Source: a virus
Length of the DNA: 42,732 nt
IMG/VR virus record: IMGVR_UViG_3300027985_000974
Coordinates: 1 to 42,732 of that record
Direction: 5' to 3' (one strand)
Shown here: positions 297 to 42,732 of the stretch, piece by piece
How positions within the stretch are numbered: the stretch's first letter is position 1
How the letters are laid out: the number at the start of each line of letters is the position of its first letter
Translations under genes and position numbers: made by a program
The notes under the pieces: model-generated
What the model was told of the DNA's origin: nothing
Seen by the model: the letters and a program-made list of their open reading frames with translations, nothing else
Database searches by the model: none

Positions 297-1367
297 TCAG
301 GTCACGTCCGGCAGCCGGGCCAGATCACCGAGGAACGCGTGCGGCGCGAGGTGCGCGTAGCGCTGCGTCATCTCGATCGATGCGTGGCCGAGGATCTGCT
401 GCAACTTGAAGAGGTCACCCCCGCCCATCATCCAGTGCGAGGCGAACGTGTGGCGCAGATCATGGAAGGTGATGTAGCCCTCGCCCAGCCCGGCGCGCTT
501 CAAGGTGCGGGCCAGGCCCTCCCGGAAGCAACGCGAGTTGCGCGTGAGCATGTCTCCGCTGGCCCCCGTGAACACGAGCTGGTCCGCCCCGAGCTTGGCC
601 ATGCGCGGCTCGAGGAGAGGCAGGAGCGGGTTGAGGATCGGAACGTAGCGGCTCTCACCGCTCTTGGTCGGGCCGTCGTAGCTGGCCCGCACGGTGATCA
701 GGCGGCGCGCCAGGTCGACCGCGTCCGCCCGCAGGCCGGAGATCTCCCCGAGCCGCATCCCGGTGTAGGCCGCGAACGCGAACAGCGGGTAGAGCTGGTC
801 TCCGCTCGGGTCGTCCTTGGCCGCGGCCAGGAAGCGAGCGAGCTCGTCCGGGGTCCTGAGGTAGCTGTAGTCCTTGTTGTCGAGCTTGTACTTGTCGACC
901 TTCGGCACAGCTTGAAGCCAGCCGAGTTCGACGGCGTGCCTGAGCATCGAGCCGAGCAAGGTGAGGTGGTGGTTCACCGTGTTCGGGGTGAGGTGGGCCC
1001 GAGCCGCCTTGAAGGCCGCGATCTCCCTCGGGCCGATGCTGGCGATGGTCATCGACTCGAAGGCCGGCCGGAGATGGGCCCGAATGAAGCTCTCGTCGGT
1101 CTTGACGCTGCGCTTGGAGGCGCCCCGGGTGGCCAGCCACTCGTCGCACAGCTCACCGAACAGGCGGTCCAGGGGGCGCCCCAGGGCCACTCCCGCCAGG
1201 ACGTCGTCCACGCGCTGGGACTGCTTCCGCAGGTGGGCCTGGGCGTCGCGCTTCAGCTCGAAGCTCTTGCTGTGGCGCCGGCCGTGCTCGTCCTGCCAGC
1301 GGACTTCCCACCGGCCGGTGCTGCGCTGCCTCAGGCTACCCTCTCGCGTCCGACCCACGTCGAGCAC
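297..1367 (-). CDS. int: Phage integrase, tyrosine recombinase
   Basis: Site-specific recombinase that would join attP to the host attB. Counting from GTG 1367 (356 aa), an N-terminal arm-binding/SAM-like region (about 1-160) precedes the catalytic domain. The full catalytic set is visible: R205 (YTGMRLGE), K235, H302 and R305 (FHDLRHTF), H328 (LGHAS) and Y337. The frame is open further upstream to 1721, but that extension translates the tRNA-like attP segment and the arm repeats, so the real start is probably GTG 1367 or GTG 1358; the latter has AGGG about 8 nt upstream. Placement beside attP is standard for tRNA-integrating phages. No inactivation is seen. Confidence 0.93.
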   Translation of the reverse strand: MLDVGRTREGSLRQRSTGRWEVRWQDEHGRRHSKSFELKRDAQAHLRKQSQRVDDVLAGVALGRPLDRLFGELCDEWLATRGASKRSVKTDESFIRAHLRPAFESMTIASIGPREIAAFKAARAHLTPNTVNHHLTLLGSMLRHAVELGWLQAVPKVDKYKLDNKDYSYLRTPDELARFLAAAKDDPSGDQLYPLFAFAAYTGMRLGEISGLRADAVDLARRLITVRASYDGPTKSGESRYVPILNPLLPLLEPRMAKLGADQLVFTGASGDMLTRNSRCFREGLARTLKRAGLGEGYITFHDLRHTFASHWMMGGGDLFKLQQILGHASIEMTQRYAHLAPHAFLGDLARLPDVT

Positions 1368-1381
1368 CCTGCCAGAGAAAG

Positions 1382-1439
1382 AGGGGACGTTCTGGGGATT
1401 TTTAGGGGATGGGCCGCCAGCGCGTCCCCATTTGGGGAT
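1382..1439. promoter_or_regulatory. Candidate integrase arm-type sites (P' arm)
   Basis: A 7-bp motif [T/A]GGGGA[C/T] occurs at 1382-1388, 1393-1399 and 1404-1410, spaced exactly 11 bp apart. It recurs inverted at 1424-1430 and direct at 1433-1439. A further AGGGGAC is at 1642-1648 on the other side of the tRNA-like core. Helically phased short repeats flanking a core are typical of integrase arm-binding sites. They also lie just upstream of int, so they could autoregulate it. Confidence 0.55.
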
Positions 1440-1470
1440 GCTTGGCGTTCCGTAAGTGCTTGTTTTGGAA

Positions 1471-1525
1471 CGGAGACGGAGGGATTCGAACCCCCGTTGC
1501 AGTTGCCCGCAAACTTGATTTCGAA
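1471..1525 (-). other. attP: attP core: 3' half of a tRNA-Ser-like gene
   Basis: Read on the minus strand this is the anticodon loop with CGA (1521-1523), the 3' anticodon stem TCAAG, a long variable arm (TTGC/GCAA), a TPsiC arm with GGTTCGAATCC, and an acceptor strand ending CGTCTCCG. The 5' half is absent: the sequence past 1526 does not pair with the anticodon stem. That is what attP of a phage integrating in the 3' part of a tRNA gene looks like. The long variable arm and CGA point to tRNA-Ser(CGA). A tmRNA end was considered and fits less well. Confidence 0.75.
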
Positions 1526-1663
1526 GCACGGAAGGGGTCAGGGCCTGTTGTGATTTCAACAGGTTGCGCTTACCGCTGGCTCCGTTTCGGGTCTTCTGTG
1601 GTCCGTCCTGTTTCAGACGTGCGCTCATTCCGGAGCAGAAAAGGGGACGGACGTCCTGGTCGC

Positions 1664-1691
1664 TTGACCTTCCCCTCGGTCTGGTTACACT
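1664..1691 (+). promoter_or_regulatory. Sigma-70-type promoter facing the 1780 terminator
   Basis: TTGACC (1664-1669), a 16-bp spacer and TACACT (1686-1691) match the bacterial housekeeping consensus well. Transcription would start near 1697-1699 on the plus strand, away from int. The only thing downstream before a strong terminator is about 80-115 nt of non-coding sequence. Confidence 0.6.
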
Positions 1692-1697
1692 GGTGCC

Positions 1698-1820
1698 GTA
1701 CACGCGGCGGAACGTGTCCATAGCTGCCTCCGTCGCGATGCTGGTCGAGGGTCAGATCTCCACCAGCACCGGGTTTGTGGAAGCCCCCGAACGCGCCAAC
1801 GTTCGGGGGCTTCGTGTTTC
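1698..1820 (+). ncRNA. Candidate small RNA next to attP
   Basis: A promoter at 1664-1691 and a strong terminator hairpin at 1780-1813 bound a transcript of about 120 nt. Its middle can fold CTGGT/ACCAG into a hairpin before the terminator stem. No ribosome-binding site and credible ORF fit inside. Its 3' end is antisense to the last codon region and downstream flank of the 56-aa gene at 1819-1989. A regulatory role in lysogeny is inference. Confidence 0.45.
1780..1813. terminator. Strong rho-independent terminator, possibly bidirectional
   Basis: GAAGCCCCCGAACG (1780-1793) and its exact complement (1800-1813) form a 14-bp perfect stem with a 6-nt loop. The plus side is followed by GTGTTT and the minus side by CCACAAA. 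It would end the small RNA on the plus strand and the 1989-1819 gene on the minus strand, insulating attP/int. Confidence 0.8.
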
Positions 1821-3518: not shown

Positions 3519-4310
3519 TCACCACACAACGCTGAGCCCCCACGTGGTCCCGCCGAGGGCCACCGCCGCGCCGCCCGCGCCCAAGGCCACCTCGCGGCAC
3601 CGGGCGTCGCTACAGAGCGCGCCGCCCACCACCGCCGTCGCGAGGCCAGCGCCAGCTACCAGGGCCCCCACCGAGGCCGTGGTGCGCGTGAGGCGCGAGA
3701 CCCGGGACTCGGCGCGCTCCTCTGCCCGCGCGAGCTGGACGCGCACGTGGGCGGCCTCCGCGGCGCCCTCGGCTCGGGCCGCCTCCACCTCCACCCCGAG
3801 GGCCCGAGCCGCCGCCCGTGCGGCACCGACCTGGGCCACGGCGGCGTCCAGGTGGGCAGCTACGGCCTCGGCGGAGGTCTCCCAGCGCGCAGCCGCGCCC
3901 TGCCACCCGGTGGCGGTGCTGGTGGCGGCGGGCGGGGGGCCCAAGACCAGGTGGCGCGCCTCGGCGAAGGCGGCGGCCCGGGCCAAGCTTTCGCGTGCAC
4001 CGGCTACGGTCGGGGGCTGGGCCAGCACTTCGCGCTCCTGGCGCACCACCACCCGCACGCGCTCGACTACCTGGGCCTGGGCCTGCTCCGCGGCGCGCCG
4101 GGCCTCGGCGGCGTCGGCCAGGGCGACCCGGTGGCGCTCCTCGAGGCGGGCCAGGTCGGCGCGGGCCTGGGCCTCGCCGGCCCGGGCGGCATCCACCACG
4201 GCGGCGAGTCGAGCCAGGTCGTGAGCCTCCGCCCGGGCGCGGTAGGCGGCCACCCCAAGCAGGGTGCAGAGCACGAGCAGGACCGCGGTGGCGACGTGCC
4301 AGCGGGTCAC
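3519..4310 (-). CDS. Spanin-like (Rz-type) membrane coiled-coil protein
   Basis: 263 aa from GTG 4310, which overlaps the amidase stop (GTGA). An N-terminal membrane anchor (about 6-24, ATAVLLVLCTLLGVAAY) is followed by a long Ala/Arg/Glu-rich coiled coil (about 25-215), the plan of an inner-membrane spanin placed right after the endolysin. Unlike lambda Rz it ends with two further hydrophobic Gly/Ala-rich segments (about 217-260) around a CSDARC motif. It is also much longer than Rz (about 150 aa). This could be a unimolecular spanin-like variant or an unrelated envelope protein. Last gene of the lysis cassette. Confidence 0.6.
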   Translation of the reverse strand: MTRWHVATAVLLVLCTLLGVAAYRARAEAHDLARLAAVVDAARAGEAQARADLARLEERHRVALADAAEARRAAEQAQAQVVERVRVVVRQEREVLAQPPTVAGARESLARAAAFAEARHLVLGPPPAATSTATGWQGAAARWETSAEAVAAHLDAAVAQVGAARAAARALGVEVEAARAEGAAEAAHVRVQLARAEERAESRVSRLTRTTASVGALVAGAGLATAVVGGALCSDARCREVALGAGGAAVALGGTTWGLSVVW

Positions 4311-4870
4311 GGCGTCACCCCGCAGTCCGAGGGGCCCCAAGCACCCAGCACCACGCCTCGGCCGTCCTCCAGGTCGGCCCGAAGCTGGTCCAGGTCGAGC
4401 AGGTGCCCGGGGCAGTGCTTGTGCGGATCCTTGGTCGCATCGCGCCCGAGTTCGCTGTGGCCCACCACCGCGGAGGCGCCCAGCTCCAGGCGCTCGCAGC
4501 ACCACTGGAGCAGCTGCAGGAGCGCTTGCCGCTGCGCCTCGGGCGGGGCCTCGCGCGTGAAGTCGCCGATCACCGCGATGCCCAGCCCGGGGCGGTTGTA
4601 CTTGCCGGCGTGGGGGCCAATCACATCTAGACCCTGGGTCACCACAACCCGGCCGTTGGCCTCCACGAAGGCCCAGTAGGGTACGCGCTGGCGATACCAG
4701 TACGGCCGCAGGGCGGTGACCAGCGGAAGGGCGAGGCGGGGCCAGTCGGGGCCGCCTGCGCGGTGGACCACCAGGTGGCGAATCTCTGTGAGGTCCCGGC
4801 GCCGGGCTGAGGTCCACCGCCGAAGGGGAACGCGGGCATCGAGGGCGCCCGGGGGCAGGTCGGTCATCAC
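4307..4870 (-). CDS. Endolysin, N-acetylmuramoyl-L-alanine amidase
   Basis: About 187 aa, with no signal peptide. It belongs to the amidase_2/PGRP fold: H36 (LVVHRAGG), the YWAFVEANGRVVV substrate strand, the GIAVIGDF core, H138 (VVGHSEL) and C153 (HCPG) supply the expected zinc ligands. It cuts the amide between muramic acid and L-Ala in peptidoglycan at the end of infection. Start: AGGAGGT lies 5 nt before GTG 4870 and 8 nt before ATG 4867; both fit. Coupled to the receiver gene upstream and the spanin-like gene downstream by overlaps. Lacking a signal, it needs a holin, and candidates lie just upstream. Confidence 0.9.
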   Translation of the reverse strand: MMTDLPPGALDARVPLRRWTSARRRDLTEIRHLVVHRAGGPDWPRLALPLVTALRPYWYRQRVPYWAFVEANGRVVVTQGLDVIGPHAGKYNRPGLGIAVIGDFTREAPPEAQRQALLQLLQWCCERLELGASAVVGHSELGRDATKDPHKHCPGHLLDLDQLRADLEDGRGVVLGAWGPSDCGVTP

Positions 4871-5304
4871 GCAATACCTCCTGCGGCTACCAGGCCGCGG
4901 ATCACGTTCTCCGCCACGTCGCGCAGGACCTCGGGATCGATCACGCGCCGCCGTCGAGCGAGAGCCTGCCGCACCTCACGAACCAGGCACGCCACCGGTT
5001 CGCCCTTGGGCACCACCGCCTCGGCGCCAGCACGAATCGCGGCCTCGTCACGCTCCGGGGTGCAGAGCCCCGAGAGCACCACCACCGGCCGGCCAGGGGC
5101 GGCGCGCTGCACCGCCTCCAGCGTGTCGACCCCGTCGCTGGCCTCGAGGCGGAGATCGGTGATCACCACGTCCACCAGCAGCGCGGCTCGGGGCGGTGCG
5201 GTGGCGGCAACAACCTCGAAGCCGGCGCGCTCAAGGTCGCGGACGAGCGCACGCAGGACGTCCGCGTCGTCGTCAACGATCAGGACTCGGCAGGGACGAT
5301 TCAC
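4867..5304 (-). CDS. Stand-alone response-regulator receiver protein
   Basis: 145 aa from GTG 5304 (GTGA overlap with the previous stop). Residues 4-120 form a complete CheY-like receiver domain: acidic pocket D11-D12-D13 (VLIVDDDADV), phospho-acceptor D50 (VVITDLRL), switch S78 (VVVLSG) and K100 (VVPKGE). There is no recognisable DNA-binding or enzymatic output domain, only about 40 further residues with a basic helix (RQALARRRRV) and DPEVLRDVAENVIRG. All catalytic positions are intact, so it could be phosphorylated by a host kinase. Its position between membrane proteins and the endolysin, inside a translationally coupled cassette, is very unusual. It could time lysis, titrate host phosphorelays or alter motility; none is proven. 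Confidence 0.85.
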   Translation of the reverse strand: MNRPCRVLIVDDDADVLRALVRDLERAGFEVVAATAPPRAALLVDVVITDLRLEASDGVDTLEAVQRAAPGRPVVVLSGLCTPERDEAAIRAGAEAVVPKGEPVACLVREVRQALARRRRVIDPEVLRDVAENVIRGLVAAGGIA

Positions 5305-5771
5305 GGGCCACCCCCCTGCTCCGCGCGGGGCGCGGGCGGAGCGTGGTGTCCGCCCCAGGCGAGCCACCCGCCCCCGAGCCCCACCGCTGCCGCAGTGAGC
5401 AGGCCGGCAAGGGCCATCAACAGCCTCGCCTTGGCGTCGGCGAGTCGGTCCTGAGCACCCTGGGAGGGGCCGGGGGGCGGGGCGGGCAGAGGCCGGGCGC
5501 CCGACTCCTCGGGGCGGGGCGGGCGCGGCTGCAGGGCCTCAAGCAGGACTGAGCTGACCACGCGCTGGGCTACGTCGCTGGCCAACTCGTGAGCACCCTC
5601 CGCCACCGCCATCCGCACCTGCTCGGGGAGTCGCTCCAGGGCCCGGGTCTGCTCGCGCAGGGCCTGGGTCACCTCGGCCAGTCCGTGGATCTGCCCCTCG
5701 AGGAGCCCGGCCAACTGTGTGGCGAGGGCCAGGTGCTCCCCAGAGCGGCTCAGCTTCTCTTGGTCGGTCAC
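5301..5771 (-). CDS. Tail-anchored membrane protein of the lysis cassette
   Basis: 156 aa from GTG 5771 (GTGA overlap). The N-terminal part is predicted helical and coiled-coil-like (about 1-75). A Pro-rich linker (about 80-105) follows, then one C-terminal membrane segment (LLMALAGLLTAAAVGLGGGW, about 115-138) and a short Pro-rich tail. No family is recognised. With the neighbouring two-TM protein it may form the holin/antiholin pair, or it may present its coiled coil to the cytoplasm beside the receiver protein. Confidence 0.6.
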   Translation of the reverse strand: MTDQEKLSRSGEHLALATQLAGLLEGQIHGLAEVTQALREQTRALERLPEQVRMAVAEGAHELASDVAQRVVSSVLLEALQPRPPRPEESGARPLPAPPPGPSQGAQDRLADAKARLLMALAGLLTAAAVGLGGGWLAWGGHHAPPAPRAEQGGGP

Positions 5772-6064
5772 GGGCTGCCGCCCTTCGGGGCTTGAGCCCG
5801 GACGAGCTCGCCCAGCACCTCGCGGTCCACCCGGCCCTGCGCGGTGACCTGCACCCCGGAGGGCGTCACCACCGCAGCGATCAGAAGCACGCCAAAGACT
5901 CCAAGCGCGCCCCAGTCTACGGGCTGGCCGTGCGTGATCTGGTACGCCGCCAGAGCGCAGACCACCAGGGCCAGGGTCAGGGCGTAGCGCGATGCCCGCC
6001 GGGTGGCCTCGGCCTTCTTCGAGTCGGCCGCGGGCTTGTTCAAGGTGTGCAGGACTTCTTGCAT
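5768..6064 (-). CDS. Holin-like protein with two membrane segments
   Basis: 98 aa; ATG 6064 has GGAGAG 5 nt upstream. A basic N-terminus (KKAEATRRASRY) precedes two hydrophobic stretches (about 27-43 and 52-70) separated by a short turn (THGQPVDWG), then a soluble charged C-terminus. Size and topology fit a class II-type holin that would let the signal-less amidase reach the wall. It opens the lysis cassette just after the tail genes. Assigned by topology and position, not by homology. Confidence 0.6.
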   Translation of the reverse strand: MQEVLHTLNKPAADSKKAEATRRASRYALTLALVVCALAAYQITHGQPVDWGALGVFGVLLIAAVVTPSGVQVTAQGRVDREVLGELVRAQAPKGGSP

Positions 6065-6073
6065 TGTGCTCTC

Positions 6074-8164
6074 CTAGTAGACCACTGCGGTGGGTGAGCC
6101 GGTGACGCTGAGCCCCAGCGTCCCGCAGGTGTCCGTGGTCTCAGCGCCGCTCTCGAACTGGTACCACTGGGTGGGCGAGCCCAGGACGCAAAGGGCATAG
6201 CGGTCGGTCGTGACTCCGGTGCAGCTATTTGGCCAGGAGTCGGTGGCGGCCTTCGTGGTGCACCCCACCTGGTCCAGCTCTCCAGCGGTGATGGACCCCT
6301 TCCCTCGGAAGAACACGACCTCGTCCACATCCGTGGTTCCGGTCAGCGCGTTGTCAGGGAAGTTGGTGGCCGTGACCCCATCCATCGCGGTTGCGGTGCC
6401 GAACGTAGTGCCGTTCGCCAGAACGCCATCCACGTAGACGTTGATCGACGAGGCGCCTGCCCCTCCCCCCGGGTAGCAGCACAGGAGGTGGATACGCTGG
6501 CTGGCCGAGTAGGAACCAGAGGCGAGGCGCCCCGTTCCAGTCCCCCCTCCGGAGCCAGAGATCAGGCACCCAGGCGTTCCGCCGCTCTGGCCCAGGAACC
6601 CGCGTTGGTTCGTCACCGGGCGGACGACAGTGTCTCCGGTGGCTTGCGGGATGGTGCCCCACGCGCCCCAGCACATAGAGGTCTCCGATCCGGTGGTGGA
6701 CGCGGTGTAGTAGTTGCCGGTGGTGCTCTGGACACCCTGAAGGTTGGCCGCAACAAAACCTGCATCTACCGAGACGCCGGCGTCGTACGAAACCGAGAAC
6801 GAGCCCGCCGCCGGTGCCACGCTGCACGGCGGAGAAGCGCAAGCCGACGTGACCTGCATCCGTACGTTGTTTCCTCCCGACTTGGCCGCGGTGGGCCCGG
6901 AGAAGCAGTCCGTGTCCCCGCTGTTGTGGCACCCCACCTGCCCCACCTGAACCTCGGTGAAGCTCGGCAGTCCCGACGCGAAGGTGTAGCGCACCGTGCA
7001 GGAAGTGGCTGGCAGATCACACGCAAGGGGGGTGGCTACGGATACTGCTGGCGGCGATACCAGCGAGCCACCGTTCAGGAAGTGGAGCCCCAGCGTAGCG
7101 GCCCCTCCCTGCGTCACCTGGGCCGCCTGACCTGTGGTGTCGACCACCAGTGGCGGGTTGGCGGCGCAGTCGTTGTGGGTGCGGCATGGCGCCGTATAGG
7201 CGACTTCGACCGTCTGGCCATCTACGATGGTTACACCGGTGGGGACGAATCGCGACGCCGCCCCATCGTTGCGAGCCCAAAGGAACGCCCGGCCCAGCGC
7301 CTCGCCGAATGCAACCGCTCCTGCACTTGTGAAGTGGGTGCCGTCCGGCGGGGCCTGCGTTGCCAGGTGGAAGGTGGAGAACATCGGCGCATTGGTGTAG
7401 GTCGCGTAGTACTCGGCCGCGTAGGGCCATCGAACCAGAGCAGTGCTCGGAGTGCCAGGGTGGGCGCCGATCAGGTCGTGGAAGACGAGACTGGTACATC
7501 CGGATGCCACGCCGGACCCGACCAAGCTGGCAAGCCGCGTCTCCGCCGCAGACTTGACCGTTGCCACCGACTCAGCAAACGACCCCACCCCGGAGAAGGG
7601 CAGAGCGCCGGCCTCAGCGTAGTAGTTCCACGAGATGTCGAAGTATCCGATGGGGCAGATCTCTGCGCCTTGTGCATCGGCCCAGGCGGCCGCCGCACTG
7701 ATGTTGGCAAGCAGAGGCGAGGGGTCCGCGGCCAACGAGTCCAGGCCGACGCCCGGCGTCTGGTAGTCGATCAGGACCCACTGCTCACCGGTAGCCGCAG
7801 CGGCGACACGGAAGGCCTGGATGGCGCCGGCCACACCGGCGCGCTCCACCGCCTCGACAACCCCCGCGTCGATCACTTGCCACGTGTTGACGGACCCGTC
7901 GCTGACACCAGCATCCGTGAGGATTGGCGGCGTCTGTAGCGTACCCCCACCCTCGTGTCCGTAGGATGAGCCCGTGAGGAGCACCGCCTGAATGATGGGC
8001 ACGCCCGAGTCAGGAGCGGGCCCGGCATCGCCACCACGCGAGGGTTCCAGGCGAGGCCCCCAGATCGTGTAGCCGTAGCCGTAGCCCCCCACGCTCTGGG
8101 CCTGGACCACCGCCGCCGCCAACAGCCCGGCGGCCAGAGCAACGAGGAGGGCCAGCTTCTTCAC
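6074..8164 (-). CDS. Exported tail-tip protein: SGNH-like esterase plus LamG-like domain
   Basis: 696 aa from GTG 8164, which has GGAGG 6 nt upstream and overlaps the previous stop. A Sec signal peptide (1-22, cleavage after VQA) is followed by an Asp/Gly/Pro-rich linker. An SGNH/GDSL-hydrolase-like domain (about 57-300) comes next: Ser in TGSSYGH (66-67) and the D274/H277 block DGTHFTSAG. Beta-rich segments with several Cys and a C-terminal LamG-like region (NVYVDGVLANG, DVDEVVFFRGKGSIT) complete it. It may deacetylate or cleave surface polysaccharide. A signal peptide on a protein in the tail-fibre position is odd: it may act outside the host cell or be surface-displayed rather than be a virion part. 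Confidence 0.7.
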   Translation of the reverse strand: MKKLALLVALAAGLLAAAVVQAQSVGGYGYGYTIWGPRLEPSRGGDAGPAPDSGVPIIQAVLLTGSSYGHEGGGTLQTPPILTDAGVSDGSVNTWQVIDAGVVEAVERAGVAGAIQAFRVAAAATGEQWVLIDYQTPGVGLDSLAADPSPLLANISAAAAWADAQGAEICPIGYFDISWNYYAEAGALPFSGVGSFAESVATVKSAAETRLASLVGSGVASGCTSLVFHDLIGAHPGTPSTALVRWPYAAEYYATYTNAPMFSTFHLATQAPPDGTHFTSAGAVAFGEALGRAFLWARNDGAASRFVPTGVTIVDGQTVEVAYTAPCRTHNDCAANPPLVVDTTGQAAQVTQGGAATLGLHFLNGGSLVSPPAVSVATPLACDLPATSCTVRYTFASGLPSFTEVQVGQVGCHNSGDTDCFSGPTAAKSGGNNVRMQVTSACASPPCSVAPAAGSFSVSYDAGVSVDAGFVAANLQGVQSTTGNYYTASTTGSETSMCWGAWGTIPQATGDTVVRPVTNQRGFLGQSGGTPGCLISGSGGGTGTGRLASGSYSASQRIHLLCCYPGGGAGASSINVYVDGVLANGTTFGTATAMDGVTATNFPDNALTGTTDVDEVVFFRGKGSITAGELDQVGCTTKAATDSWPNSCTGVTTDRYALCVLGSPTQWYQFESGAETTDTCGTLGLSVTGSPTAVVY

Positions 8165-8952
8165 CGGACCACCTCCGCGTGCAGCGTCTGCGCCACCGAG
8201 CACCGGCACCCAAGGTGCTGGCCCCGGACTGTTTGCTGCGCTCCACCGCGCTTGCTCGCCACCAGCTCGGCGGAGCGCGCCGCCTGCGTCACCAGGCACG
8301 TGGCGCCCGAGGGCGTTCCCGCCACAGCGCTGCACTCCGAACTTGCGCAGGACCCGGACGCGTCCGCGCTTGCCCCGCTGTTGCACTTGCAGCTGGCGTA
8401 GACGTCGAGCCCGTCCATGCGGACCCGGTCGGTGGCGGCGGTGTAGCTCTGCGCGTCGGTGGCGGCGGACCCAATCACCGGCGCCGAGCACAGGCCGGAC
8501 CGGGCCCCGCCCGCACCGAGGCTCAGGAGGTAGCTCGCCCGCATCACGCGTGTCTGGCCGGCAGGGATCAGGAGCAGGCCGCCCTGCAGTGAGGTTCCGT
8601 TGGGCGCCCCTGTCACGTCCAGGATGTCGTTGTTTGCGGCACCGAACGGGTATCCGATCGTCGCGGCGGGCGAATCCAAGAGGGCACACTTCGCGGTGTT
8701 GGTGGAGCTCGAGGTGAGAAGCGAGGTGATCACCACCCGAGATCCGTCGGGCACTAGGAAGTTAGCCGCGTCGCCGGTCTGGCCCTGATCGAACTTCAGG
8801 AAGGTCGTCCCAGACTTAGTGCAGCTGATGTCCCCATTGAAGATGGGGCGCCCGGGCGCCACGTAGGCGTCCTGGTGCTGGAAGGGGTCCACCGGTTGGG
8901 CGAGCGCCACCACCGGGGCCAAGGTCAGAAGCAGGGTCAAGATCGTACGCAT
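8161..8952 (-). CDS. Exported Cys-containing protein in the tail-fibre position
   Basis: 263 aa; ATG 8952 with GAGGAG 4-5 nt upstream. A clear Sec signal peptide (1-18, cleavage after VALA) leads into a beta-rich mature part, ending with a Cys cluster (ASCKCNSG, SCASSEC, LGCRCSV). No family is recognised. It is translationally coupled to the next exported protein (GTGA overlap), so the two probably work together, perhaps as a surface complex or receptor-binding accessory. Phage structural proteins are normally assembled in the cytoplasm, where such disulfides would not form. Confidence 0.65.
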   Translation of the reverse strand: MRTILTLLLTLAPVVALAQPVDPFQHQDAYVAPGRPIFNGDISCTKSGTTFLKFDQGQTGDAANFLVPDGSRVVITSLLTSSSTNTAKCALLDSPAATIGYPFGAANNDILDVTGAPNGTSLQGGLLLIPAGQTRVMRASYLLSLGAGGARSGLCSAPVIGSAATDAQSYTAATDRVRMDGLDVYASCKCNSGASADASGSCASSECSAVAGTPSGATCLVTQAARSAELVASKRGGAQQTVRGQHLGCRCSVAQTLHAEVVR

Positions 8953-8964
8953 GGTTCTCCTCGT

Positions 8965-10251
8965 TCAGTCGTTTTGGGGTCCCGGCAGGCTGGTGAGCAC
9001 CTTCTCACTCGCTCGCAGTTGGCGAACTTCGTTATCAGCGGCGGAGCCTACGGTGCGCTGCATCGTGATCTGCAGAACCACCCACTCCCCGCCGTTGGTG
9101 GCCCCGCTGAAGTCGACGCTGTCAGTGACCTCGGTACCGTTCTCGGCGTCACTGCAATCCACATTGACGGTGATCGTTCCAACGCTGCCCGTGAGCGCGA
9201 ACGACAGGCGCACCGTCTCCCCCGGCTGGCAGAAGCACTCGGCACCGCACTCAATCCCACCGTTCTGCGCGTGCTCCGCGTTCACCCACAGGTCGGTGAT
9301 GATGATCTCCTCGGCGCCGGCCCCAGGATTGAAGTTGAACGGCCCCACAGCGGCGCTTGCGCCACCGCTGTAGTCGTCCCAGCCATCCCCGGCCACGCAC
9401 AGGTTCAGGTGCGTCTCGGGCCGGTAGGCCATCGCCCAGTCCTCCTGCCGGTGAAGCCTGCGCAGGTCCTCGTAGGTCACGTCCTGACCGAGGGAGAGAG
9501 CCAAAGGTGAGAGCGTGGTGCCTCCCTCCGCGGTGTCGACCAGAACGGTGTCGAAGTCATCCATGGCCGCGCGGGCCTCGACCCAGAGCGGCATGAAGCC
9601 AATAGGCTGGTTGAAGGTCTGCGTTCCGTCGTTCCAGCCGTTGGCCCGAGCCTCCACCCGGATCTCGCACTTCCCCGGCTGGTCGGTGGCCACGTTGCTC
9701 AGCGGAACTCGAACCCGCGCCATATGGACTCGGAACGCCCCCAAGAACGGCGCCTCGGCGTCGTACAGCCGGGCTAGGTCGTTCGGTGACCCCTGCAGGA
9801 CGCCTGACGAGGTCTGGGTGCGGGCCGCGCCATCCCGCGCATCCTCGGTGATCACCGTGGAGCTGGTGGCCGAGTCGGTGTTCGTGCTCGCGTCGATGAC
9901 GGTGACCTGCAGGTCAACCTGCGTCTCGCGCATGGTCTGGATCGCGAAGATCACCAGCGCGTCAACGTGGCTCACCTCGAGGGGCATCTCTGCCCAGGCT
10001 CGCCCCACGCCGCCCCACTCGGTGGCCGTCGACAGCGTGAACGCCCGGGTGAGCGACAGGTCCCCGGATAGGTCCTGGGTGTTGTGCCAGTAGGGCTGCT
10101 GAAAGAGCAGCATCCCATGCGCCTGGGTGTGCACGTAGGCCTGGCGCAGGCACTCGGCCACGAGGAAGCTGAAGGGCGCCCAGGGGTGCCCAGCATACTG
10201 TGAGACCCACGCCGCCTCTGTGTAGGCTCGGTCTCCAACCTGAAGCGTCAT
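8965..10251 (-). CDS. Tail-tip structural protein, unknown family (428 aa)
   Basis: ATG 10251 overlaps the previous stop (ATGA). The product is rich in beta-strand-like and aromatic segments, has no signal peptide and contains one Cys cluster (IECGAECFCQPGE, about 334-346). It opens with AYTEAAWVSQYAGHPWAPFSFLVAE. Its position between the baseplate-hub-like proteins and the exported proteins suggests a distal tail or receptor-binding component. No homologous family can be named. Confidence 0.7.
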   Translation of the reverse strand: MTLQVGDRAYTEAAWVSQYAGHPWAPFSFLVAECLRQAYVHTQAHGMLLFQQPYWHNTQDLSGDLSLTRAFTLSTATEWGGVGRAWAEMPLEVSHVDALVIFAIQTMRETQVDLQVTVIDASTNTDSATSSTVITEDARDGAARTQTSSGVLQGSPNDLARLYDAEAPFLGAFRVHMARVRVPLSNVATDQPGKCEIRVEARANGWNDGTQTFNQPIGFMPLWVEARAAMDDFDTVLVDTAEGGTTLSPLALSLGQDVTYEDLRRLHRQEDWAMAYRPETHLNLCVAGDGWDDYSGGASAAVGPFNFNPGAGAEEIIITDLWVNAEHAQNGGIECGAECFCQPGETVRLSFALTGSVGTITVNVDCSDAENGTEVTDSVDFSGATNGGEWVVLQITMQRTVGSAADNEVRQLRASEKVLTSLPGPQND

Positions 10252-11084
10252 GGCGTCGCGTCCTCTCCGTAGACCACCACCGAGAGCAGCTGCACCGATG
10301 GGCTCTTGTACAAAGTGAAGGTGGACCCGCGGGTGCCGTAGCGCTCCGCGTCGCTGCCGAAGTGTGGGTAGATGGCCAGGTCGATTCCGCTCAGCGTGTC
10401 CACGATCTTCGATGGCACATGCCGAATGCCGCCACCCGCGGTAGTGAACAGCACGTAGTGGCCGCCGGTGTGGACGTTGCTCCAGGCCGCTGCGTTGTGC
10501 CCGAACGAGTAGGGCGTGTTGACGGTGTTGACGGTGCCGGTGTTGGGCGTGCCGTAGGTGCCCGTGTCCATCAGCGGATCTTTGGACGGATCCACCAGGT
10601 GCCGCATGTAGATGCTCAGGCGCTCGCCCGGGGGCGCCTGGCAGGGGAACTCGAGGTCAATGACGTCCACATCCCCGGTGCCGGTCTGGATGGCGACCTC
10701 CCCTTGGCTGATGCGCGCGGCCCGGGGCGTCGGGCGGGGCGTGGCTCCAATGAACCAGCTCACACGCTGGTCCAAGGACACGATGGCGCGGATCCTGGCC
10801 CGCAGCGTCCGAATGCCGTGCTTCTTCCCCACCGGCACCACCAGCGAACTCACCGCGTGCTGCCAGTACGGGGGCGCGTAGGCGAGGGCCGCCCCCGGCC
10901 TCTCCCCGGACGTGCGCTGGTCGGCCACCCAACGCGCCAACATCCCCGCCCGGCCCTTGAGCAGGTTGCCGTCTCGCACGAGCTCGCGGACCTTGTGCGC
11001 GGTGACGGGGGCGCCGTCGGCGAAGGCCGCATCGGCCAGGGCCCCGTAAACGGCGGCGACCTCGGGTGTCTTGAATAGGGTCAT
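10248..11084 (-). CDS. Tail protein, unknown family (278 aa)
   Basis: ATG 11084 overlaps the preceding stop (ATGA). The N-terminal 65 residues are helical (TPEVAAVYGALADAAF onward). The rest is beta-rich, with a Gly/Thr/Asn-rich loop (GTYGTPNTGTVNTVNTPY, about 200-217). The longer open frame to 11693 is antisense-free but lacks coding character and overlaps the upstream gene, so the shorter start is used. It is likely a minor tail or tip protein by position. Confidence 0.65.
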   Translation of the reverse strand: MTLFKTPEVAAVYGALADAAFADGAPVTAHKVRELVRDGNLLKGRAGMLARWVADQRTSGERPGAALAYAPPYWQHAVSSLVVPVGKKHGIRTLRARIRAIVSLDQRVSWFIGATPRPTPRAARISQGEVAIQTGTGDVDVIDLEFPCQAPPGERLSIYMRHLVDPSKDPLMDTGTYGTPNTGTVNTVNTPYSFGHNAAAWSNVHTGGHYVLFTTAGGGIRHVPSKIVDTLSGIDLAIYPHFGSDAERYGTRGSTFTLYKSPSVQLLSVVVYGEDATP

Positions 11085-42588: not shown

Positions 42589-42732
42589 AAGAGGGTTGGC
42601 TATAGTTGCGGTCCGTCTCGGTCCGTCCTGTTCGCTCTGTCCGTCCTGTAGACAGGCGAAAAAGAAGCCGTGACACATGTTGCCGCTGTTAACCCTCTGT
42701 GAGGGGCCGCGATATGCGCTGGCAAGTCGGCT
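42589..42732. repeat. Right copy of 144-bp terminal direct repeat
   Basis: Identical to bases 1-144 over its whole length; the true left boundary of the identity cannot be seen because the window starts there. It means no gene is missing at the ends and the control region reads continuously from 42482 into 296. Confidence 0.97.

Follow-up and report, generated by a model that had tools for sequence, protein, structure and literature searches.

The time of lysis is usually attributed to holin accumulation and a handful of inhibitors, T4 RI among them. As to receivers, their kinase specificity is set mostly through helix alpha1, and their output passes through the alpha4-beta5-alpha5 face. Bacterial single-domain response regulators, for example CheY, DivK, Spo0F and EpsW, consist of the receiver fold with its catalytic residues and have no output domain; EpsW of Myxococcus acts through binding of a membrane enzyme (PMC12802240), which sets a precedent for regulators of this type working via a membrane protein. 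Phages were also proposed to time lysis through the host CtrA, so-called 'lytic deferment' (PMC9437464), and this is a precedent for host signalling setting the lysis time. Here, we analysed a stretch of viral DNA (IMG/VR record IMGVR_UViG_3300027985_000974, positions 1-42,732; referred to as the window), in which a stand-alone receiver gene at positions 4867-5304 lies among lysis genes. The protein shares fold, catalytic residues and lack of an output domain with the bacterial regulators; unlike them, it is encoded by a phage within lysis genes, its helix alpha2 is short, and there is no cognate kinase in the genome. CtrA from the host acts at the promoters of the phages that it controls, whereas the window phage encodes its own receiver, devoid of a DNA-binding domain.

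The main finding of our studies is that a receiver and the membrane coiled-coil protein encoded next to it are the constant unit of those lysis cassettes that carry a receiver, kept while endolysins and holins change. A viral fold library led us to the 149-residue receiver of phage V22, and tblastn led from it to cultured phages, among which stand-alone receivers were found in nine Alteromonas phages of five lineages (R9Y1, R9Y2 and R9Y3; R8W and H4/4; PB15 and XX1924; V22; A5); all cultured examples infect Alteromonas. Gene neighbourhoods were read in seven of the nine (R9Y1, R8W, H4/4, PB15, XX1924, V22 and A5), and in each of these seven cassettes the receiver had holin, spanin or endolysin genes around it and immediately followed a gene for a membrane coiled-coil protein (here and throughout, coiled coils were called by eye on sequence and hydropathy). 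An earlier note on this DNA, made from its letters alone, had placed the window receiver in a phage lysis cassette. Our homologue search shows that such an association is real and recurrent: it returned intact receivers in lysis neighbourhoods of several lineages, and not just degenerate or host-acquired fragments devoid of a conserved lysis neighbourhood.

The cassette of the siphovirus R9Y1 is the closest match to the layout of the window, with the same order and 4-bp overlaps: tail fibre, transmembrane (TM)/coiled coil, receiver, lysozyme and a small gene, with an ATGA overlap at each junction. In R8W and H4/4, which belong to Autographiviridae, a class II holin is followed by TM/coiled coil, receiver, membrane protein and terminase, and 4-bp overlaps flank the receiver on both sides. 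The TM/coiled coil and receiver pair (about 34% and 50% identity, respectively) is common to R8W and R9Y1, the lysis genes around it and the rest of the cassette being different; receivers of R9Y2 and R9Y3 both show 47% tblastn identity to that of R8W. The receiver of R8W and H4/4 is under purifying selection (ratio of non-synonymous to synonymous substitution rates, dN/dS, 0.157), a statement which concerns this close pair only. In PB15 the order is XhlA-like coiled coil/TM (a match to phrog_937, labelled hemolysin), receiver, M15 endolysin and a holin with three TM segments. XX1924 has the same order, but a DUF5675 gene takes the slot of the M15 endolysin; between these two phages, identity is 62% for the receiver, 88% for the coiled coil/TM protein and 94% for the holin. 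The myovirus V22 (MN877442) and the Schitoviridae podovirus A5 (OP481051) are syntenic over fibre chaperone, TM/coiled coil, receiver, Rz-like spanin and a protein with two TM segments, and the gene following this block in A5 is annotated as endolysin.

The Alteromonas phage cassettes are thus like that of the window in having a stand-alone receiver with the full active site, holin, spanin or endolysin genes around it, a membrane coiled-coil gene directly upstream and overlapping genes; the order of membrane coiled coil, receiver and lysis gene, with overlaps, agrees with both R9Y1 and PB15. They differ in possessing other endolysin families and in showing no alpha2 deletion. Identity between the receivers of the cultured phages and that of the window is 19-25% in the core, a level at which their common descent is not established. 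The acid pair, phospho-accepting Asp, Ser/Thr and Lys are retained in all 14 lysis-located receivers.

The papers that we found in the open-access literature, including those on V22 and R8W, do not link such receivers to lysis, and label them auxiliary metabolic genes or PhoB; annotations of the Alteromonas phage genes range from hypothetical through CheY-like and PhoB to hybrid kinase. The paper on V22 (PMC7289586) counts its receiver among class II auxiliary genes, two positions past a papain-like amidase. V22 ORF30, annotated as 'hybrid sensor histidine kinase', is a receiver of 149 amino acids, and R8W gp48 (L161:10436-10897), published as PhoB, has 153 amino acids and is barely longer than a receiver. 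The latter leaves no room for a DNA-binding domain of the PhoB type, which makes its label doubtful, and both 'auxiliary metabolic gene' and 'PhoB' seem worth reconsidering for genes of this kind.

In the window, the receiver open reading frame lies on the minus strand, with a GTG start at 5304 and a TGA stop at 4869-4867; its ends are exactly those given in the earlier note, and coding statistics favour its frame. The product matches Pfam Response_reg (PF00072) with E 4e-14 and 53 bits (cut-off 30) over positions 1-107 of 111; no second Pfam family exceeded its cut-off, which bears out the previously claimed lack of a known output domain. The active-site set is complete, with D11 and D12 as the acid pair, D50 as the phospho-acceptor, S78 and K100, and D13 is also found where it had been reported. 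Structure prediction, proposed earlier as a check, gave a confident receiver fold: the AlphaFold2 model, based on an alignment of 69 bacterial and viral receiver sequences, has a predicted local distance difference test (pLDDT) score of 87 and contains strands beta1-5, helices alpha1, 3, 4 and 5, an alpha2 of only three residues, coinciding with a 5-residue deletion in the alignment, and an additional C-terminal helix (residues 124-140). All Foldseek matches of this protein in the PDB were receiver domains (E down to 5e-9); a model built from the single sequence was poor (pLDDT 48) and was discarded. The designation 'full receiver' is slightly too strong, since alpha2 is about five residues short, and Gly instead of Pro follows K100. 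The deletion is no argument against signalling, because specificity resides mostly on alpha1 and output on alpha4-beta5-alpha5. No sequence evidence favours CheY over other receivers for this protein, and among PDB sequences DctD matches it best.

A chain of five genes, joined by 4-bp GTGA overlaps (Table 1), runs from 6064 down to 3519 and begins 9 bp after the stop of the tail-fibre-like gene. One GTGA is shared by the receiver start and the stop of the TM2 gene, another by the receiver stop and the amidase start, so the start/stop overlaps noted earlier on both sides of the receiver are confirmed; the amidase stop is joined to the gene at 3519-4310 in the same way. The ribosome-binding sites of the receiver and amidase form duplexes with the anti-Shine-Dalgarno (anti-SD) sequence that are stronger than 95% of background positions (5th percentile, -9.5 kcal/mol), and, in view of such a strong site, the receiver gene is very probably translated. 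The sites of the membrane genes are weaker (-7.3 and -6.8 kcal/mol). With sites so unequal, equal output of the receiver and the lysis proteins does not follow, and the idea that they are made in fixed ratio is not supported. TM2 shares its layout with XhlA-like proteins, the helical part preceding a TM segment at the C-terminus, but has no sequence match to phrog_937. The protein encoded at 3519-4310 matched no spanin family in Pfam and PHROG scans, its TM and coiled-coil character being the basis for its tentative assignment.

Table 1. Features of the lysis region and the integrase gene in the window
Feature	Position	Strand	Evidence
Stand-alone CheY-like receiver, 145 amino acids	4867..5304	-	PF00072, predicted fold, PDB fold matches
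Ribosome-binding site of receiver, AGGGGGGTG, 4 nucleotides 5' of GTG	5309..5317	-	anti-SD duplex -11.4 kcal/mol
Amidase_2 endolysin (N-acetylmuramoyl-L-alanine amidase)	4307..4870	-	PF01510 E 3e-15; phrog_1493 endolysin E 1.2e-12
Ribosome-binding site of amidase, CAGGAGGTA, within receiver 3' end	4875..4883	-	anti-SD duplex -11.6 kcal/mol
Membrane coiled-coil protein TM2: helical N-terminal part, C-terminal TM at residues 117-135; candidate receiver partner	5301..5771	-	
Small membrane protein TM1, holin-like candidate: TM 53-71, hydrophobic stretch about 27-45	5768..6064	-	
Membrane coiled-coil protein, TM segments at both termini, spanin-like candidate	3519..4310	-	no family match
Tail-fibre-like gene region upstream (start approximate)	6074..8158	-	weak phrog_4201 tail fiber match, E 0.0026
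Tyrosine integrase (temperate phage)	297..1721	-	phrog_1 E 2e-71; PF00589 E 2e-30

The phage record (GC content 68%) carries a direct terminal repeat of 144 bp at 1-144 and 42589-42732, and is therefore probably a complete genome. Besides the integrase, it encodes major head, portal, head maturation protease, tape measure and primase-helicase proteins; relatives close to this phage, sought by means of the head maturation protease, were not found. The receiver is the only one in the record, and a search of the window for the histidine-kinase ATPase domain (HATPase_c) gave no result, so a host kinase would be required for phosphorylation of D50.

Receivers of metagenomic viruses were collected from IMG/VR without regard to location, by means of a short acid-pair motif, which covers part of the receivers only. 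Among the 12 records with a recognisable endolysin, five had it within 5.2 kb of the receiver, at a chance of less than 10% per record (binomial p 0.004, Fisher p 0.03). The distance threshold was chosen after the data had been seen, and the search covered five endolysin families, not each of them in every record, so this enrichment is suggestive only. The receiver adjoins a membrane coiled-coil gene in L006, with Amidase_2 1.0 kb away, and in L005, near a papain-like hydrolase and with Amidase_3 5.2 kb away; in L014 the two genes share a GTGA overlap and Amidase_2 is 0.4 kb away; in L147 a GH108 endolysin lies 3.2 kb from the receiver. The block of L033 consists of receiver, coiled coil/TM, PAS-GAF-histidine kinase, a small gene and an Amidase_2+SLT endolysin. 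In L148 two small membrane genes flank the receiver, ahead of terminase, and L029 encodes a fusion of the receiver with a predicted coiled-coil and TM segment.

The simplest reading of the constant unit is that its two proteins cooperate, and that phosphorylation of the receiver alters the membrane protein and hence the timing of lysis. For the window we infer a chain of events in which a host histidine kinase would phosphorylate D50, and the phosphorylation state would alter how the alpha4-beta5-alpha5 surface of the receiver binds the cytoplasmic coiled coil of TM2. TM2, in turn, would act together with the holin, and its complex with the receiver may advance or delay lysis depending on the host signal. 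The chances appear to us evenly balanced that the gene at 4867-5304 encodes such a phosphorylation-competent single-domain response regulator, tuning lysis to the host phosphorelay through its membrane coiled-coil partner. More generally, we suppose tentatively, judging the balance to tip slightly the other way, that in several unrelated phage groups their own receiver and membrane coiled-coil protein constitute a phosphorylation-gated lysis timer set by host signalling or, in L033, by the phage's own histidine kinase. None of the papers that we found describes lysis control by a timer of this sort. Histidines of the coiled-coil proteins were also considered as phosphotransfer sites, and rejected, being commonplace in such proteins and showing no conservation in the alignment.

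Several observations weigh against this interpretation. No close relative of the window cassette was found, and the selection measured is that on another member, the R8W-H4/4 receiver. The cassette has an Amidase_2 endolysin and a chain of overlaps; as to its small membrane proteins, neither TM1 nor TM2 matched any family in Pfam and PHROG scans, known holin and XhlA families included. The truncation of alpha2 belongs here too, as do seven of the 12 metagenomic receivers from endolysin-bearing records, which are not near the endolysin, and L003, a cassette with a membrane coiled-coil protein and no receiver. A crude test over all metagenomic receivers gave no significant excess of small membrane proteins as operonic neighbours (5/37 vs 28/371 elsewhere, p 0.17). 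Finally, lysis-located receivers do not form one clade: in a tree of the metagenomic receivers (cultured phages not included), lysis location needs seven changes.

This scatter also fits a view in which the receiver is cargo at a hot spot, the tail-lysis junction taking up accessory genes, and abundant bacterial receivers landing there by chance, with an unrelated use or none. Distribution is indeed sporadic, with no close siblings found for receivers of the window, L005, L006, L014, L029, L033 and L147, and the enrichment near endolysins in metagenomic viruses is modest. On the other hand, chance cargo would hardly be interleaved with the lysis genes and overlap both its neighbours by 4 bp, nor does it agree with the low dN/dS of the R8W-H4/4 receiver, the intact catalytic set in every lysis-located receiver and the block conserved between unrelated Alteromonas phages; we regard such an origin of the association as quite improbable. 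Another possibility is that the receiver is directed at the host, where, made late, it would drain phosphoryl groups from a histidine kinase or phosphorelay (of stress, motility or cell cycle), or block it, its position reflecting late expression only. The window phage has no kinase and hence must use host signalling, the strong ribosome-binding site suggests an abundant receiver, and the authors of the V22 and R8W papers class their receivers as auxiliary metabolic genes. However, both the constant membrane coiled-coil neighbour in the cultured cassettes and the retention of the pair despite exchange of endolysins and holins are left unexplained, which makes an exclusively host-directed role unlikely in our opinion; for motility control, mentioned in the earlier note, we found no evidence. 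In the window protein, the shortened alpha2, the Lys-Gly pair instead of Lys-Pro and the extra C-terminal helix might indicate a binding module independent of phosphorylation, e.g. one that serves the membrane coiled-coil protein as scaffold or as antiholin-like inhibitor. Yet the phosphorylation residues, for which a mere scaffold would have no need, persist in all lysis-located receivers that we examined, very divergent ones included, and this seems to us a very improbable role.

Presence of the same kind of switch at the same place in unrelated viruses suggests that some viruses let host signalling influence the time at which the cell bursts. If the receiver is fixed in lysis cassettes of several phage groups, phages would be able to consult a host phosphorelay in the decision to lyse. 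Cultured phages whose hosts are named, i.e. R9Y1 (host, Alteromonas macleodii ATCC 27126), H4/4, PB15 and V22, make the question of phosphorylation-gated lysis directly testable.

A separate problem is the origin of the window receiver. Its best bacterial matches have 26-42% identity and are spread across many phyla; relatives so distant and scattered leave a recent capture from any sampled host unsupported, and the catalytic set is nevertheless intact. No close homologues were found in INPHARED phages at 1e-5, or in viral contigs with a single-sequence query. Most INPHARED receiver matches were set aside as probable host contamination, not checked individually, and the viral-contig matches L004, L007, L009, L031 and L032 as regulators of host type or as prophage-adjacent host DNA. 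Two published cases were rejected as parallels: phage N4 gp63, called 'Receiver domain' (PMC12642591), bears the name only and has no response-regulator domain, and truncated phage Spo0A homologues (PMC10294663) are missing the receiver, which is the opposite of the window case.

Other viral receivers were encountered in the course of this work. In the 86.9-kb record L033, tail fibre genes are immediately followed by a full two-component pair (6824-10910), with a PAS-GAF-HisKA-HATPase kinase and an overlapping gene for a coiled coil/TM protein. A receiver family with C-terminal hydrophobic segments, i.e. membrane-anchored, occurs in L103 (6983-7675), L116, L117 and L118, with no recognised endolysin near it in L117, and large viral contigs (L131, L143:5630-7381, L154 and L138) encode PAS-kinase-receiver hybrid proteins. 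The label of phrog_1128, 'enoyl-CoA hydratase/carnithine racemase-like', looks wrong, as this family matches permuted papain-like (C92) phage amidases beside lysis genes (L157:6960-7370, L005:4912-5520 and L006:3521-4102). In L018 (7010-7661), only 1 bp separates a stand-alone viral receiver from a KaiB-domain gene (PF07689, E 4.5e-9) downstream of it.
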